DNA from: Planctomycetota bacterium
GTDB taxonomy: Bacteria > Planctomycetota > Brocadiia > SM23-32
Reading direction: 5' to 3'
Assembly: GCA_030628375.1 (NCBI GenBank)
Contig: DAOVRD010000006.1
Coordinates: 1-32,018, forward strand
Length of the DNA: 32,018 nt
In this document: piece after piece, positions 10,208-21,462 of the stretch
Layout of the letters: each line of letters begins with the position of its first letter
Position numbering within the stretch: the first letter of the stretch is position 1
Notes under the pieces: model-generated
Seen by the model: only the letters and a program-made list of their open reading frames with translations
What the model was told of the DNA's origin: nothing
Database searches by the model: none
Program-made: the position numbers and the translations under genes

Positions 10208-10831
10208 TCAGAAAGGCCACACGTAGCTCAGAATACGGTTCACTATGCCTTCTTTGATGTAGGCATCCGAACTTCCCCCGGTCTCGTAACGGATGTTCAG
10301 GTGTGCCACCATGCGGGAAGAAATGCTGTTGGCGCCGGAGACATCTTCGGGCCGGACGATGCCGTTCAGGACTGTAACGACCGTCTCCCCGGCGATGACT
10401 CGCTCGTTGCGCCCTGCGATGACCATGTTGCCGTTGGGCAGCATGTCTCTGACGGTCACCGTTATGCTGTCGGAGAACTGCCGGTTGCCGGTGTATTCGT
10501 CCGATCCCTCCATCTTGCGTGAAGACTGCTGTCGCAGGGCGCCCGCGGGGATCTCCATATCGACAATGGGAGACTCGAAGTACAGGCTGCCCGAGTGAGA
10601 GGTCTTCTTCTCCATCTCCCGCTCGCCTTCCAGCTTGAACGTGCTCTGGTCGGCGATAAGCACGGTGATGCAGTCTCCCACGTCCGCCGCGACATTGTCG
10701 CTGTAGAGGAACGCGGCATCCTGCTTCTTTCGATCCCAGATGGACTCGGCGTTCGCTGCGGGTAGAGCGGCGGCGAGTGCGAACAGCGCTGCCAGCCAGA
10801 CGACGACGGAGCTGCCTGTCCTATTCCTCAT
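10208..10831 (-). CDS. flgH: Flagellar L-ring protein FlgH (apparently non-lipidated)
   Basis: SIWDRKKQDAAFLYSDNVAADVGDCITVLIADQSTFKLEGEREMEKKTSHSGSL ... ITVTVRDMLPNGNMVIAGRNERVIAGE ... LSGVVRPEDV-type region (LNGIVRPEDVSGANSISSRMVAHLNIRY). Start set at MRNRTGSS (10831); ORF open to 10879. Confidence 0.93.
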   Translation of the reverse strand: MRNRTGSSVVVWLAALFALAAALPAANAESIWDRKKQDAAFLYSDNVAADVGDCITVLIADQSTFKLEGEREMEKKTSHSGSLYFESPIVDMEIPAGALRQQSSRKMEGSDEYTGNRQFSDSITVTVRDMLPNGNMVIAGRNERVIAGETVVTVLNGIVRPEDVSGANSISSRMVAHLNIRYETGGSSDAYIKEGIVNRILSYVWPF

Positions 10832-11828
10832 GACCAGCGCCTCCAATGGGCACTTCGATGGTCCCCTGCCCGACGGCAATGCCGACGACCTCCCGACCGG
10901 TGCTGAGATTCTTCGCGCGGGCTATCTCGCCCTCCCGTGCTCGGCCCAGCGCCGTGCCCAGCGTGACAACGCGGAGCGTGGCTGTCTGTGCCACCAGGAA
11001 GACGCGTTGATTGCGCTCTATGACGACCGGCCGCTGGGCATCACGGACCTCCCACCACGTCAGGACCTGGCCGGGCAGGATGGCGCGGGCGGCGGTCTTC
11101 CTCGATAGTTCCTCCAGCGACCGCACGCAGCGTCCCTGGATCCTTGTTGTCTCTCGCCGCAAGAAGACAATGTTCCGCGAGGAGAACTCCTCGCCAACTC
11201 CGATCTTGCACCGGGCCGCGGCCACCCGGTCGTAAATCCTGACGGCGAAACTGGTCGGCACCTTCTTCAAACGAACGCCGTCACGCACAACGTCCACGTC
11301 CACGCGAACGGTCCCCACCGGGGGGCCAGTCCCGAAAAGCGAAGGGCGCAGCTCCGCTTGCCCTCCGGCGGCGGGCACCATCACCGGCGCGACTTTGCGG
11401 AGAAGCTCGACATTCACATCCGGGCCACCCTCCGGGAAGTAGCTCTCCAGGTGTCGCCGAGCAACGGACACGATGCGCTCCGGTTCGATCCTGATGGAGG
11501 CCAGCTTCACGGCGCAGCACTCGGCGCCCCCGAAACGAAAGCGCCCGAGCTGGAATCCTGCCGAGAGCAGCCGCGCCTTGAGCAGCATGCGGCTGATCTC
11601 CCTGACGTGGCCCGGCCATGGGGAATTGCCCAGGGACAGATCTCGCACCTCGGCGGGAACCTTCTCGCCCAGCCGCGCCACGTCGCCGACCTTGAGGACC
11701 GGGGTCGAGACGACGGCCTCGTCCATCAGGGCTATCTCCCACGCCTGCTCTTGGGCCGCCCAGCAAGGCGAAGCCCACACAACAGCCACTGCAACGACGA
11801 ACCGGACGAGTCTAGCACTCATGCTCAC
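10821..11828 (-). CDS. flgA: Flagella basal body P-ring formation protein FlgA (SAF domain)
   Basis: Signal peptide; C-terminal SAF/ChapFlgA: LSRKTAARAILPGQVLTWWEVRDAQRPVVIERNQRVFLVAQTATLRVVTLGTALGRAREGEIARAKNLSTGREVVGIAVGQG. Confidence 0.92.
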   Translation of the reverse strand: MSMSARLVRFVVAVAVVWASPCWAAQEQAWEIALMDEAVVSTPVLKVGDVARLGEKVPAEVRDLSLGNSPWPGHVREISRMLLKARLLSAGFQLGRFRFGGAECCAVKLASIRIEPERIVSVARRHLESYFPEGGPDVNVELLRKVAPVMVPAAGGQAELRPSLFGTGPPVGTVRVDVDVVRDGVRLKKVPTSFAVRIYDRVAAARCKIGVGEEFSSRNIVFLRRETTRIQGRCVRSLEELSRKTAARAILPGQVLTWWEVRDAQRPVVIERNQRVFLVAQTATLRVVTLGTALGRAREGEIARAKNLSTGREVVGIAVGQGTIEVPIGGAGHEE

Positions 11829-13543: not shown

Positions 13544-14686
13544 CTATTCCTGCGCGGCGAGCTCCACTTCGTGCACCAGGCGGAACAGGTAGCGCCTCTC
13601 CTCAGCGTCCGCATCGGAGAACTCAATGCGGTAGAGGCAGCGGCCCCCCTCAACTGTCCCCATCTGGACTACGGTGCCCCGAATCTCGCGATCTTCCAGA
13701 GCGTCCTCCCGCGCCGCCCGCTCCGGGGAAACGTAAGCCGAAGGACGAAACCGGACAACCAGCGCCTCGCCTTCCTCATAATAACACGGACAGACCAGGG
13801 CCAGGCCCCCCAGGCTCAGGTCGCGCAAGGTGCCCTCGCGCTCGATGTCGGCCGCCTCCCAGCCGGCCCGGAACGTGACGGGCTTATTGACAGCCACCCG
13901 GTGGGACTGCCGCGCCTCGGCCCTCCGCACGCCAAGAGTGTGCGTAAGAAGGCACGACGAAGAGCCCATCCCAACGACCTTGGTGGCAAAACCGTAGGCC
14001 CGCCCTTCATCGTAGAAGACCACCTCCACCGCCGTCCCGGCCAGGTCATCGGGAACGGCGCTCAGGCCTGCCAAATGCAGAAAATCCGCGCGCTGCTCCC
14101 CCACTGTACCCAGACAAATGGGGCCTTGTCCTTGCTCAGCGCCCCTTACCTCCACGTCCTGTCCGCGCCTCAGCTCGCGGGAACTGTAGTACACCATGCC
14201 GGAATGAGATCCCAGGCCTATCTTCGCGCGCAGGATGCCCACAGTGTCGCTGGCGCGACGAGGGCCCTCACCGGGTCCCGCCGAGCAGAAGGGCCTCATA
14301 TAGCGATCCACGGCCCGCTCGAAGACCTCTGACCGTTCCAGGATGTGCGAAGGATTGTTCGGGCACTCGCGGCTGGCCAGCTTCCTGACCAGCGCGCGGT
14401 GTCGCGGTTCCAACCCGAGATCGCCGAGCTTCTGGCCGAACTCCTTCCAACTGGCGACCAACCGACGGCGCCGGCGCACCGCTCGCAGGAGAAGCTGGAG
14501 CAGCAACAGGAAGACGGCAACGCTGGCCGCCCGGAGAATGAACAGGGCAACACGGGGCCCCATCCCCCTGCCCAGCCACTGCTGGATGCCCTTCAGGGCA
14601 TCGGGCCCCGTCAGCAGCCGGCGGGATGCGTCCTGGATTCTGAACTCCCAGATGCGCTCAAGCGCGCTGAACACATACCCTTTCAC
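13544..14686 (-). CDS. Membrane-anchored PilZ-domain (YcgR-like) flagellar protein, predicted c-di-GMP binding
   Basis: N-terminal TM (RVALFILRAASVAVFLLLLQLLLRAVRRRRR); YcgR-N-like beta domain; PilZ motifs RQSHR (RxxxR) and DLSLGG (DxSxxG). GTG start at 14686 has GGAGG upstream. Confidence 0.82.
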   Translation of the reverse strand: MKGYVFSALERIWEFRIQDASRRLLTGPDALKGIQQWLGRGMGPRVALFILRAASVAVFLLLLQLLLRAVRRRRRLVASWKEFGQKLGDLGLEPRHRALVRKLASRECPNNPSHILERSEVFERAVDRYMRPFCSAGPGEGPRRASDTVGILRAKIGLGSHSGMVYYSSRELRRGQDVEVRGAEQGQGPICLGTVGEQRADFLHLAGLSAVPDDLAGTAVEVVFYDEGRAYGFATKVVGMGSSSCLLTHTLGVRRAEARQSHRVAVNKPVTFRAGWEAADIEREGTLRDLSLGGLALVCPCYYEEGEALVVRFRPSAYVSPERAAREDALEDREIRGTVVQMGTVEGGRCLYRIEFSDADAEERRYLFRLVHEVELAAQE

Positions 14687-16862: not shown

Positions 16863-18620
16863 TTAAACCAAGCAGTCCATACGGCCCGACTCGCTGATGC
16901 GAACCCAGCCGACGCTCCGCTCTCCGAGCGGCTCGTCCAGATCGTCGGCACCAAGGTGAGAGGCGTCAACAGGCCCGTTGCCGTCGGCGGTCTCCCTTCG
17001 CTCCTCGTCCTGCCCGGGGTGGTAGTCACCCACCTCGAAACGGCTCACGTCCACGTGGGCCTCCTTCAAGGCCCGATCCAGGTCGGACAGCTCGTTCTGG
17101 ATGGCGGCGCGTACGTCCGGGTTTTCCACCCGTATGCGCACTTCCAGGACGCCGTCGCGCATCTCGATCTCCAACTTCATGCGCCCCAGCTCGGGTGGAT
17201 GCAACTGGACCCGCAATTCAGACCGGCTCCCGGACCGGACGTAGCGCGCCGCCCGCACGACTTCCTGTCGCGTCACGTCCACCGCCTGGCGCGTCGCCGC
17301 GCGAACGCCTGTGGGCGCTCCGTATCCCCCCCGCCCCGCCAGATGCCGACCGACGACACTGCCCACTGCGTCCCGCCCATCAAAGACGGATCCTTTCGCA
17401 GCACGCCCGCTCTCCGGCTCGACCTTAGGGCTGTGGGGAGCCTTCGGCCGGCGGCCGACGCCCTCGAGACGGCCTTTGAGTTCCCCGATATCGTCCGAGA
17501 CAGCGCGGGACTTTCTGCTCGCGCCGGATCGCGCCGCATCCGCTTCCTGCCACACCTGTCGGTTTTCCCCTCCGTCATAACCGCTGTCCGAGTTCAGGCC
17601 CGCTCGACTCCTGTCCGCAACGACCGTTCCGGGGCGCTCCCGACCCGCCGCCAACACCGGGGCCTGATCTGGCGTCGGGCCCCGAGGGGCGCTTGCCGGC
17701 AGAGCCTGTGTCCGGCTCGAAGCGGGTTCCTGCTTCGATCCGGTCGTGGTGGCTGCCTGCCACACTCGCCGAGCTCTCGGAGGCGATGTGCTGCGAACGG
17801 GCGACTCGCCGTCGGTTTGCGTCTTAAGTGCTCCAGCGGGAACGTCAGCATGCGGCGCATGCGGCCCATGCGGCGCATGCGGCCCATGCGGCACACGCGG
17901 CGCAAGCGGCGGGCTTCCCGTGGACGGACGCCCTGCGCGCTGTCCGTTCGACTTCGCGCCGGCGGACGGCGGCTGGGTTCCCCCGTCGGTCCCGGCCATC
18001 CGCGGAAGCGAAGACCCTCCGTTGCCACCAGTTCGCACCCTGACCCACCGGCCATCCCTGGGCGCCGTTTCGAGCGAAGGCGCCCGGCCGCGCACCCCGG
18101 TGTCGCGCACGTCTCTCGCTTGCGGCCGTGCGCGATCAGGGGCGGCACGACGCACCGGCGGGTCCATCGTCCGCGGGCCGCTTTCCGGCCGATGTTGCGA
18201 TCGCCCCGTTTGCTGGCCCGACGCTGCTCCGGACGCGGGGGCTTCGGCTCCGCCGCGGACCGGAGGTTCCGAAACCGCCCGCTCCGCCGCCGGCGGCTCA
18301 TCGAGGCCCGGCCCGCCATCCCGCGCCGGCTCGCTTGGGCAAGAGCTTGGCGTCTCAGGGCTTACGTCCTCGGACTGATCCCGCGGCGCAACCCTTGCTT
18401 CCTCCGGGTTGCTCTGCCAACCGTTCGATTCGGGTGACGCATGCTGAGCGCTGCGGTCAGGCTGCCCAACCGTCTGCAGGGACTCCTCCAAGACGGCGAA
18501 GAACCCGCTGGCACCAGTGGACTCCACCGGCCCTGACTGCCCGAGGAACTGGCCGCCCGGCGGACAGAGATAGTCTGCACCCAGCATGGATGTGAGGCTC
18601 GGACTCACGGCGGTCCTCAT
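16863..18620 (-). CDS. fliK: Flagellar hook-length control protein FliK
   Basis: Pro/Arg/Ala-rich low-complexity N-terminus; C-terminal Flg_hook domain SELRVQLHPPELGRMKLEIEMRDGVLEVRIRVENPDVRAAIQNELSDLDRALKEAHVDVSRFEV. Start uncertain (ORF open to a TTG at 18689). Confidence 0.88.
   Translation of the reverse strand: MRTAVSPSLTSMLGADYLCPPGGQFLGQSGPVESTGASGFFAVLEESLQTVGQPDRSAQHASPESNGWQSNPEEARVAPRDQSEDVSPETPSSCPSEPARDGGPGLDEPPAAERAVSEPPVRGGAEAPASGAASGQQTGRSQHRPESGPRTMDPPVRRAAPDRARPQARDVRDTGVRGRAPSLETAPRDGRWVRVRTGGNGGSSLPRMAGTDGGTQPPSAGAKSNGQRAGRPSTGSPPLAPRVPHGPHAPHGPHAPHADVPAGALKTQTDGESPVRSTSPPRARRVWQAATTTGSKQEPASSRTQALPASAPRGPTPDQAPVLAAGRERPGTVVADRSRAGLNSDSGYDGGENRQVWQEADAARSGASRKSRAVSDDIGELKGRLEGVGRRPKAPHSPKVEPESGRAAKGSVFDGRDAVGSVVGRHLAGRGGYGAPTGVRAATRQAVDVTRQEVVRAARYVRSGSRSELRVQLHPPELGRMKLEIEMRDGVLEVRIRVENPDVRAAIQNELSDLDRALKEAHVDVSRFEVGDYHPGQDEERRETADGNGPVDASHLGADDLDEPLGERSVGWVRISESGRMDCLV
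17848..17910. repeat. 9-bp minisatellite inside fliK, seven units (consensus GCATGCGGC)
   Basis: GCATGCGGC GCATGCGGC CCATGCGGC GCATGCGGC CCATGCGGC ACACGCGGC GCAAGCGGC; encodes (G/A)PH repeats in FliK (PHGPHAPHGPHAPHAD). Confidence 0.85.
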
Positions 18621-18778
18621 GACTGGAGAACATGCCTTTGGCCGATGGGGAGCAAGAGGTATGCCAAGCGAGGAGGCGCTTGAGCGCAAAAGCGCCCAGA
18701 GGCCCGAAGGGAGGCTTCAGGAGGCGTATGGACGGCTAGCCAGACGACACCGCCCGCTTCCCCGCCGGAAGACAAAGC

Positions 18779-18818: not shown

Positions 18819-19451
18819 CTACAGGCTGCTGATTATCCTGGGCGCCATTTGATCGGCAACAAACCGCAGGAAGTAGCGTGGCGAATTCAGCACGAGATCC
18901 GGCCCGTACCGGCCGTCTTCGCTGACGTGGTTGCGGCGGCAGTAGGCATCCATCATGCGCTGGACGGGCTTCTGGCCGGCGTCCCACTGCTCCGAGAGCG
19001 AAAAGAGCACTCTGCCCGTGGCGGTGTCTATGAACTTGAGACTGATCTGCACGGAAGGCGTCCGGTAGGGATTAATCTGATCCAGCGACCCCATGATCAT
19101 CGCGTCCGCCTTACACTCCTCACGCACCTGCACCAGAACAGCCAGAGGCATCTTGCCGCTGACGAAAGGGTCGTGTTCGTCGCGCAGGGAGGCCAGCGGC
19201 ACAAGCACCACGTCCGTCGCCGCCGTCTCATCGGCCAGCTTCTCTGCCAGCGCCCGGCTGAAGTCCTCTCCGTAGCCGTAGGAGCTGTACCGGCTGTGAT
19301 CGAAGAACTCTACGACCGCCACCCTTCGATAAGGGATGACACGGCCCGGCGGTTTCCGCGGTGTGCCCAACGGGAGCACGTTGCAGCCGACCAACCAAAA
19401 ACCGGCAATAGCCAACAAAGCAAGGCGTGGCGTTGTTCTTTCTCGTCTCAT
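18819..19451 (-). CDS. Putative outer-membrane lipoprotein with LpoB/CsgG/TolB-N-like domain
   Basis: Lipobox AIAGFWLVGCNVLP; RRVAVVEFFDHSRYSSYGYGEDFSRALAEKLADETAATDVVLVP...ADAMIMGSLDQINPYRTPSVQISLKFIDTATGRVLFSLSEQW. ATG at 19451 overlaps the upstream stop (ATGA); the longer ORF to 19949 runs antisense-free but overlaps the previous gene and lacks signal features. Confidence 0.78.
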   Translation of the reverse strand: MRRERTTPRLALLAIAGFWLVGCNVLPLGTPRKPPGRVIPYRRVAVVEFFDHSRYSSYGYGEDFSRALAEKLADETAATDVVLVPLASLRDEHDPFVSGKMPLAVLVQVREECKADAMIMGSLDQINPYRTPSVQISLKFIDTATGRVLFSLSEQWDAGQKPVQRMMDAYCRRNHVSEDGRYGPDLVLNSPRYFLRFVADQMAPRIISSL

Positions 19452-19996
19452 TCGATGCCCTTTTCCTTCTTGAAGATCTGCAGAAGCGTGAGAATCTGCT
19501 GAAGCACTTCCAGCTCGGCCTCTTCGGCCTGTCTCATTTCGTCGCGGAAGCCAAGGACGTCGGCTTGCCACGTCCGGAGCGCCGCTTCCAGTTCCTGGAC
19601 CTTTTCGTCGCCGGCTTGCAGTTGGGTCTGAAGCTGATTGACTGCGCTGCTTTTCTCCTGCAGTTGTTGCCTCAGCTCTGCGACCGTCTCCTGGAGCTTC
19701 TCGTTCTCCTCGCGTGCCTGGCTCAGCATGTTCAAGGTCTTGTTCAGAGTCTCTGTGAGCGCAAATCCCCCGGCGGCAAACGCAAGGACGGGCTCGGTCT
19801 CGACCAGTGGCGGCGGAGCCATGGTTTCGAGCAACGGAGGCGGCGTCGCCGCCGGTGGAGTCGGAGGCTGTTCGCCGGCCAGTGCTGGGGCGGTGGCTTG
19901 CGTCCCCCGGGTCGCCGGCAGGGGCGTAGTGGCGCAGGAACCGACGCACAGTGCCAATACGAGGAAAAGACCCACACTAAGAATCCTTGCTCTCAT
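19448..19996 (-). CDS. Putative coiled-coil lipoprotein
   Basis: MRARILSVGLFLVLALCVGSCATTPLP lipobox; LSQAREENEKLQETVAELRQQLQEKSSAVNQLQTQLQAGDEKVQELEAALRTWQAD coiled coil. ORF open to 20023. Confidence 0.75.
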   Translation of the reverse strand: MRARILSVGLFLVLALCVGSCATTPLPATRGTQATAPALAGEQPPTPPAATPPPLLETMAPPPLVETEPVLAFAAGGFALTETLNKTLNMLSQAREENEKLQETVAELRQQLQEKSSAVNQLQTQLQAGDEKVQELEAALRTWQADVLGFRDEMRQAEEAELEVLQQILTLLQIFKKEKGIE

Positions 19997-20246
19997 TTTC
20001 TCCTCCCTGTTCGGAGTACTCACACTGGAGCGTTGTCACGCGGCCACACGGGCAACGCACCTGTATCGCGCGAACGGTGCCGTCCTCGGCTCGCTCCACC
20101 TCGATCTCCGGCTCGCCCTCCGGGACCGGGGCAGAGGCCAGCCTCACGTCCAGCGTGCCCACCGGGACCTCGACGGCCTCCTGGCCAAGGAGGACTTCGC
20201 GAGCCTTGAGGACCTTCCTACCGCGACTGGTCAACCCGTTTCTCAT
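19977..20246 (-). CDS. Small hypothetical protein with CxCG...C motif
   Basis: 89 aa; IQVRCPCGRVTTLQCEY; tightly packed between neighbours in the operon. Confidence 0.6.
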   Translation of the reverse strand: MRNGLTSRGRKVLKAREVLLGQEAVEVPVGTLDVRLASAPVPEGEPEIEVERAEDGTVRAIQVRCPCGRVTTLQCEYSEQGGENESKDS

Positions 20247-20248
20247 GA

Positions 20249-20488
20249 TCAGGTCTCTACATCAAGGTTGCGGCCGACGTTGGACGGCACTTGAGCCGGC
20301 CTCCGGTCCTCGCGCCGCGGGTCCGCGTCGTGCCGTGGGGCGTCGACGTCCTTCTGTGCAAGGTCGCTCTCTTCAGCCATCTGTTCCCGGAATCGCCCCT
20401 TGTTGCCCTTAGGCTCCTCTCTGGAGGGGGGCCTGACCCGCCTGGGCTTATGGATACTGGCAGATCTTATTTCATCCGTCATCGTCAT
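20249..20488 (-). CDS. Small highly charged, probably disordered protein coupled to fliA
   Basis: 79 aa; ATG overlaps fliA stop by 4 bp (20485-20488). Confidence 0.55.
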   Translation of the reverse strand: MTMTDEIRSASIHKPRRVRPPSREEPKGNKGRFREQMAEESDLAQKDVDAPRHDADPRREDRRPAQVPSNVGRNLDVET

Positions 20489-21225
20489 TCCTCCAGCATA
20501 CGAGCCAGATTATAGAGCGCCGCGGTGTGCAGTTGGGACACCCTTGATTCGCTGATGCTGAAGACTTCGGCCATTTCAGACATGTAGAGTTCTTCGTAGT
20601 AGTACATCACGATGATCTGCTCTTGCCTTTCGGGCAGCGCACGAATGGCGGCCGTGAGACATTCGACCTTTTCCTTCCACTGAAGCTTGTCCAGGGGCGT
20701 GTCCAGGTCGCCGGCAGCCAGTCCCGCCAGGACGTTCTGGTGGCCTTCGTCTTCCTGGGCGGTCTGATCCAGAGAGCTAACGCGGTCCCACTTCTCGTAG
20801 GAGAGGTGCTCCAGCACATCATGCCGCGTCATCCCCATGGCGGTGGCGAGTTCCTCGATGGTCGGCTTCCTGCCGTGGTTTCCTTGAAACCGGTCAATCG
20901 CTTCCCGCAGGTTCTCAAGCTGCCGGCGGGCAGACTTGCTGAGCCAGTCGGTGTGCCGCAGATGGTCAACCATAGCCCCCTTGATACGCTGGTAGGCAAA
21001 GGTTCTGAACCTGACGCCCTTCGATTCATCGAACCGGTGAGCAGCTTCCACCAGACCCAGCGTGGCAGCGCCGATCAGGTCATCGCGAGACACTGTGGGG
21101 TTCACTTGGGCCGATAGGCGGTCGGCAAGGCGATGGACCAGATAAAGGTTATCCAGTACCAGCTTCTTGATTCGCCCGGCCTTGTCGCCGGCTTCTTGGT
21201 AGGCTGTCTCAGCCAGGTTCGCCAT
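20485..21225 (-). CDS. fliA: Flagellar RNA polymerase sigma factor FliA (sigma-28)
   Basis: VSRDDLIGAATLGLVEAAHRFDESKGVRFRTFAYQRIKGAMVDHLRHTDWLSKSARR; region 4 LPERQEQIIVMYYYEELYMSEMAEVFSISESRVSQLHTAALYNL. Confidence 0.96.
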   Translation of the reverse strand: MANLAETAYQEAGDKAGRIKKLVLDNLYLVHRLADRLSAQVNPTVSRDDLIGAATLGLVEAAHRFDESKGVRFRTFAYQRIKGAMVDHLRHTDWLSKSARRQLENLREAIDRFQGNHGRKPTIEELATAMGMTRHDVLEHLSYEKWDRVSSLDQTAQEDEGHQNVLAGLAAGDLDTPLDKLQWKEKVECLTAAIRALPERQEQIIVMYYYEELYMSEMAEVFSISESRVSQLHTAALYNLARMLEE

Positions 21226-21240
21226 TATCCGGCCCTGTCC

Positions 21241-21462
21241 TTACCCGGTCTTCTCTCTTCTGGATCGCCTCAAGCCGTCCCGCACCACGCCCATCGCCAG
21301 ATGCGTGCTCAGCCGCGCCACCAGGGCCACAACGACCCCGCAGATGGCCGCCTTCTTCATCGCCAGCAGCGGCGGACAGGAGTAGAGCAGCCCCACCAGC
21401 ATTGCGGCGCAGAAGGCCACAACGCCGCCGAGCAGCCCCACGTTCTTGGGCAGACTACTCAT
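21241..21462 (-). CDS. Small two-TM membrane protein between flhG and fliA
   Basis: 73 aa with two hydrophobic segments (VGLLGGVVAFCAAMLVGLLY; AAICGVVVALVARLSTHLAMGVV); start overlaps end of flhG. Confidence 0.65.
   Translation of the reverse strand: MSSLPKNVGLLGGVVAFCAAMLVGLLYSCPPLLAMKKAAICGVVVALVARLSTHLAMGVVRDGLRRSRREKTG

Follow-up and report, generated by a model that had tools for sequence, protein, structure and literature searches.

Background

In Vibrio, FlgO, FlgP and FlgT make the H-ring around the flagellar L-ring (PMC6375700), and PelC is a periplasmic lipoprotein that forms a 12-mer ring beneath the outer membrane (PMC12141448). Planctomycetota flagellar motors are little studied, and the conserved, unnamed gene set beside fliA and fliK analysed here provides defined targets in this phylum; an open-access literature search found no paper on Planctomycetota flagellar motors or on this gene set, which as far as could be found has not been described before.

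A gene set between fliA and fliK

The window (the whole stretch of DNA that was analysed) is an entire contig of 32,018 bases, part of a 3.9 Mb MAG of the class Brocadiia, phylum Planctomycetota, and of a family in which no anammox member could be named. Its minus strand carries a complete flagellar cluster in the order motB, fliL, fliM, fliN, the fliO-R region, flhB, flhA, flhG, a 73-aa hydrophobic ORF, fliA, four ORFs, fliK, flgD, flgE, a PilZ protein gene, flgF/flgG, flgA, flgH, flgI, flgJ, flgN, flgK and flgL, several of these names being assigned from position and sequence reading. An earlier sequence-only reading had singled out the four consecutive ORFs between fliA and fliK, and they are minus-strand genes whose order and positions are those it gave. 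The upstream partner fliA (sigma-28; 20485..21225, minus strand; TIGR02479, 1.8e-62) is translationally coupled to the set, its stop codon sharing the ATGA at 20485-20488 with the start of dis (20249..20488, minus strand), which encodes a disordered, charged protein of 79 aa. Two bp separate dis from CxC (19977..20246, minus strand), the gene of an 89-aa cytoplasmic mini-protein with an N-terminal hIKxxxV-like motif and a C-terminal CxCG...C domain. CxC in turn overlaps by 20 bp with lipoCC (19448..19996, minus strand; 182 aa from an ATG or 191 aa from a GTG), a coiled-coil lipoprotein whose stop codon shares a further ATGA (19448-19451) with the start of lipo2 (18819..19451, minus strand), a lipoprotein of 210 aa. 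The downstream partner is fliK (hook-length control; 16863..18689, minus strand; PF02120, 8.5e-18).

Both ATGA junctions had been noted by that reading and are confirmed, as are the two lipoboxes (VGSC with Cys21 in lipoCC, LVGC with Cys23 in lipo2) and the long coiled coil, which in lipoCC is a long charged coil from about residue 75 onward. Its claim that the ORFs match no standard component also holds, no Pfam or NCBIfam family being matched above its curated cut-off by dis, CxC, lipoCC or lipo2, and PADLOC and PHROGs searches matched nothing meaningful; we claim no membership of any named family for these proteins. Elsewhere in the cluster, the 73-aa hydrophobic ORF between flhG and fliA (window 21241-21462; no PHROGs match) keeps its position in relatives, and the PilZ-domain protein between flgE and flgF/flgG (13544-14686), which has a hydrophobic N-terminal segment, is found in the same place in G005, a genome of the same family.

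Conservation and flagellar context

Homologues occur in the same order in same-family genomes at 33-59% identity, with fliA-dis-CxC-lipoCC-lipo2 retained in G005, G002 and G008. Because of these ordered homologues, and because the lipobox Cys of lipo2 is invariant in 35/35 aligned members from across the phylum, the four are not chance ORFs. A lipo2 profile run against a phylum sample of 294 genomes returned 131 matches, 71 of them strong (E<=1e-14). FlhA was present in 66/71 of the strong-lipo2 genomes (Fisher p=1.7e-12) and FlhA or FlgH in 70/71, four of the five FlhA-less genomes having FlgH; among FlhA-positive genomes, FlgH was found in 62/66 with lipo2 versus 77/109 without it (p=1.8e-4).

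In most other lineages examined the order is fliA-(dis)-CxC-lipoCC-lipo2, and most of 40 loci from other classes show flhB-flhA-flhG-fliA-CxC-lipoCC-lipo2; fliA lies upstream of lipo2 in 24/31 loci of other classes and fliK downstream in 9 of the 28 with room for it. In anammox bacteria (Brocadia, Kuenenia, Scalindua) lipoCC-lipo2 stands immediately before fliK, and in the anammox families the pair adjoins fliK-flgD-flgE on the upstream side with neither fliA nor CxC there. Where a locus had enough sequence, a same-strand fliK followed lipo2 in all 16 class loci and all 22 named anammox loci. Under a strict filter, a coiled-coil lipoprotein stood immediately upstream of lipo2 in 45/60 loci, and in one lineage (L147) lipo2 adjoins flgH-flgI. 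Divergent versions occur in family f33, where fliA is followed by CxC and a coiled-coil lipoprotein in most of six loci, with a lipo2-like protein detected in three. The majority of the lipo2 loci sampled in family f18 have no flagellar genes beside them. At several f18 loci, mostly outside flagellar clusters (L146, L150, L151, L132), a long lipoprotein that combines an N-terminal beta-like domain with a coiled coil comes before lipo2, as does a second coiled-coil protein, which is a lipoprotein in most. An FlgT_C domain suspected from sequence in the large f18 lipoprotein was rejected, Pfam and PDB profile searches being negative.

The conserved unit is CxC-lipoCC-lipo2, with dis optional, so that of the four-gene module originally proposed three genes stand and dis is dispensable. 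The module is widespread in Planctomycetota and not confined to the window's family. The neighbourhood survey, set beforehand as the test that could refute the sequence-only reading, thus found the ORFs conserved beside flagellar genes in relatives, and a flagellar role of the module is near certain.

Fold of lipo2 and location of the lipoproteins

That lipo2 carries an LpoB/CsgG/TolB-N-like pattern, as first suggested, agrees with its fold class. A profile (A5) built from 35 lipo2 proteins from across the phylum matched PelC (7.3e-7), LpoB (5.5e-4) and GNA1162 (6.9e-3) in the PDB, plus one chance match (0.19). With an AlphaFold (AF2) model of the window's lipo2 (pLDDT 80, pTM 0.73), the best Foldseek match was FlgT (3w1e; E 9.8e-8, TMq 0.52), with a Vibrio LPHT-ring entry (8z5n; 2.3e-7) second and the PelC dodecamer (3e-7), TolB and LpoB (1.8e-4) after it. 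The FlgT and PelC scores are nearly equal, at sequence identities of 10-16%, and the FlgT domain concerned is what we take to be its middle, TolB-N type domain. The protein has an FlgT-M-type fold as well as the PelC fold, the latter together with a lipoprotein signal, in a single domain rather than the three-domain architecture of FlgT.

Among Pfam families, LpoB was the most frequent, weakly matched by 11/35 lipo2 members (best 5.8e-6), and individual members also gave weak GNA1162-like and CsgG matches; the window's own lipo2 had no LpoB match (PF13036) at E<=1 and scored 12.6 bits against CsgG (PF03783), below the 20.8-bit cut-off, and CsgG-type pore hairpins are not evident in lipo2. Identification of lipo2 as FlgO was rejected, since PF17680 matched 1/35 members, only at 0.0069, and found nothing at the lipo2 locus in 58 genomes searched (cut-off 22.6 bits); FlgT_C (PF16538) had no match in the window's genome. 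Genuine homologues of FlgO, matching PF17680 at E about 1e-40, do occur in two f5 genomes (L051 and L052; G036 and G037), apart from lipo2. Assignment to the TolB-N/CsgG/LpoB-type superfamily is secure, and the choice within the superfamily is not.

In the model the first strand begins at residue 43, leaving a linker of ~19 aa after the lipid Cys23, and because this linker is short the domain would sit next to the membrane. In every lipo2 and lipoCC protein whose lipobox could be called, the +2 residue is other than Asp, so both are predicted to be sent to the outer membrane by the +2 rule, which is borrowed from E. coli.

FlgH is a lipoprotein in E. coli. The window's flgH (L-ring; 10208..10879, minus strand) encodes a protein without a lipobox, the signal peptide leading into ESIW, and among the Planctomycetota inspected (the window and L219-L258) nearly all have an FlgH that begins with an ordinary signal peptide and shows no clear lipobox Cys, the signal peptide running directly into S(L/I)W in many; the lipobox is kept in two (L243 and L249) and ambiguous in L253. 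An L ring without lipid anchors is at least a hint of why separate anchoring lipoproteins might exist. As an explanation particular to lipo2, loss of the FlgH lipid was rejected, because genomes without lipo2 also have FlgH without a lipobox.

CxC, dis and the distribution of FlgM

The dis protein finishes in a short C-terminal stretch similar to (I/V/L)D(V/L/I/F/Y)x(A/T), and equivalents of dis were found in 12/35 loci having fliA and CxC. Where dis is absent, CxC mostly overlaps the stop codon of fliA or lies almost against it. C65, C67 and G68 are invariant across 26 CxC homologues, and an AF2 model made from a single sequence, of low confidence (pLDDT 54) and too poor for a fold search, gave a three-stranded C-terminal domain. 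Searches of CxC against the PDB and Pfam returned no convincing homologue, a match to the CxCG of bL31 (0.065) being taken as chance. The N-termini of some Planctomycetota FliH proteins (L168, L176, L184, L195) bear an (I/V)IK-like motif similar to the beginning of CxC, and the two may have a docking motif in common; across FliH N-termini inspected at 30 loci for a CxC-like hIKxxx motif, the resemblance is suggestive at best.

CxC was found in 50/294 genomes, a count that leaves out sub-significant tail matches, and 49 of these have FlhA. Among the 175 FlhA-positive genomes, FlgM was present in 10/49 with CxC versus 94/126 without (p=9e-11), and within the lipo2- and FlhA-positive genomes in 5/38 versus 23/28, counts that are inflated by shared ancestry; kinship is handled by the family tally alone, which gave 2/18 versus 35/42 (p=1.8e-7). 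A hand count in family f33 found FlgM in most CxC-negative genomes and in 3/6 CxC-positive ones, each of these three with a second FlhA. Several f33 genomes (G142, G159, G189, G329; L210, L212, L214, L215) have two FlhA genes, one in a CxC-type cluster, which suggests two flagellar systems. Within the class Brocadiia, FlgM is present in the anammox genomes, whose modules have no CxC nearby, whereas in the window's family CxC is present and FlgM went undetected, PF04316 having no match in the window's genome or any of its eight same-family genomes. Since PF04316 matches neither dis nor CxC, both were rejected as FlgM. The exclusion has exceptions in f39 (weak FlgM matches), f54 and f56, and 32 FlhA-positive genomes have neither gene. 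The simplest reading is that flagellar systems of the CxC type run without FlgM, although in divergent lineages an FlgM may have been missed.

These distributions, the fliA-CxC junctions and the f33 tally raise the tentative idea that CxC, with or without dis, might be an anti-sigma-28 factor or another sigma-28 regulator that replaces FlgM, an addition to the collar proposed below rather than a competitor of it. Against this stand the swelling of the counts by shared ancestry, the exceptional families and the genomes with neither gene, as well as the result that no similarity to anti-sigma factors was found in sequence or structure; on balance we think such a role possible though doubtful. 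The earlier picture of a module made wholly of envelope hardware accordingly suits lipo2 and lipoCC but less so the fliA-coupled CxC, which may be a regulator and a possible answer to how sigma-28 is controlled in flagellated bacteria that lack FlgM.

A proposed outer-membrane collar and its alternatives

Our main reading, to which we give a probability of about 0.5, is that lipo2 and lipoCC form an additional collar around the flagellum at its passage through the outer membrane, as the sequence-only reading had suggested; the flagellar context and FlgT-like fold point the same way. Both lipoproteins would be exported and, having no Asp at +2, held by their lipids in the outer membrane's inner leaflet. 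There lipo2, with its single TolB-N/PelC-type domain near the membrane, would most likely multimerise and encircle the L/P ring as a ring or collar, at the site where rod and hook pass through, and lipoCC could act as a long helical strut of about 100 residues (~15 nm) that connects this collar with either peptidoglycan or the basal body. The pair would replace the Vibrio H-ring lipoproteins in function and may compensate for an FlgH that has mostly lost its own lipid anchor, while the fliA-coupled CxC gene would be the regulatory arm. Several observations count against the collar: TolB-N and LpoB belong to the same fold class as lipo2, which means that the fold by itself is no proof of a ring; compensation for FlgH would not be particular to lipo2 genomes, given that FlgH has no lipobox in genomes lacking lipo2 either; and most sampled f18 lipo2 loci are not beside flagellar genes. 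That one Planctomycetota cassette should combine an outer-membrane collar of its own kind (a lipo2 ring and lipoCC strut at an L-ring of anchor-less FlgH) with CxC as an FlgM-independent sigma-28 regulator is a speculative and rather unlikely whole.

The f18 loci would also suit lipoproteins of general envelope housekeeping that lie near flagellar genes by chance, but the co-occurrence with FlhA (66/71) and with FlhA or FlgH (70/71), and a tight overlapping order conserved over many families, already disfavour this and make it highly improbable. Coupling to wall synthesis had been offered as well, with lipo2 spanning the wall in the manner of LpoB and locally activating a peptidoglycan synthase to make room for the rod and rings, and lipoCC as a spacer. 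LpoB is indeed the Pfam family most often matched by lipo2 members and the second PDB family (6e-4 in round figures), yet Foldseek places it below FlgT and PelC and the module holds no synthase gene. LpoB crosses the periplasm by a long disordered linker, against ~19 aa from Cys to domain in lipo2; the absence of Asp at +2 in both lipoproteins and this short linker make an outer-membrane collar a better fit than an activator of the LpoB type, which we now consider improbable. A PelC/CsgG-type ring of lipo2 might instead gate hook or FliK-controlled substrates without being a structural collar, in keeping with PelC as top PDB profile match and with the anammox lipo2 directly preceding fliK. Flagellar export, however, does not normally need an outer-membrane gate besides the L ring, the pore hairpins of CsgG are not evident, and reading through the cluster turned up no gene for a PelB-like barrel; we hold such a gate to be even more doubtful.

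Comparison with known systems

CxC and dis resemble FlgM in being small proteins tied to fliA, dis sharing also its disorder, but CxC has a CxCG...C motif and neither protein is matched by PF04316. With LpoB, the PBP1b activator, lipo2 shares its fold and sub-threshold Pfam matches, although its linker is short and its context flagellar. The same holds for the CsgG/GNA1162-like proteins as regards fold class and sub-threshold Pfam matches, while lipo2 stays below the cut-off and no curli genes were noticed. PelC is closer, being an outer-membrane-type lipoprotein of similar size and fold and the best PDB profile match, but it belongs to a pel operon with the PelB barrel, whereas lipo2 stands in a flagellar context at nearly all loci. 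The Vibrio FlgT/FlgO/FlgP system shares that flagellar context; FlgT is the best structural match of lipo2, and FlgO is likewise a flagellar outer-membrane lipoprotein. FlgT differs in being soluble and three-domain where lipo2 is a single-domain lipoprotein, and the Vibrio H-ring is not paired with a coiled-coil lipoprotein or with CxC. Any H-ring-like structure in Planctomycetota would have to put the TolB-N/PelC fold to a use specific to the lineage.
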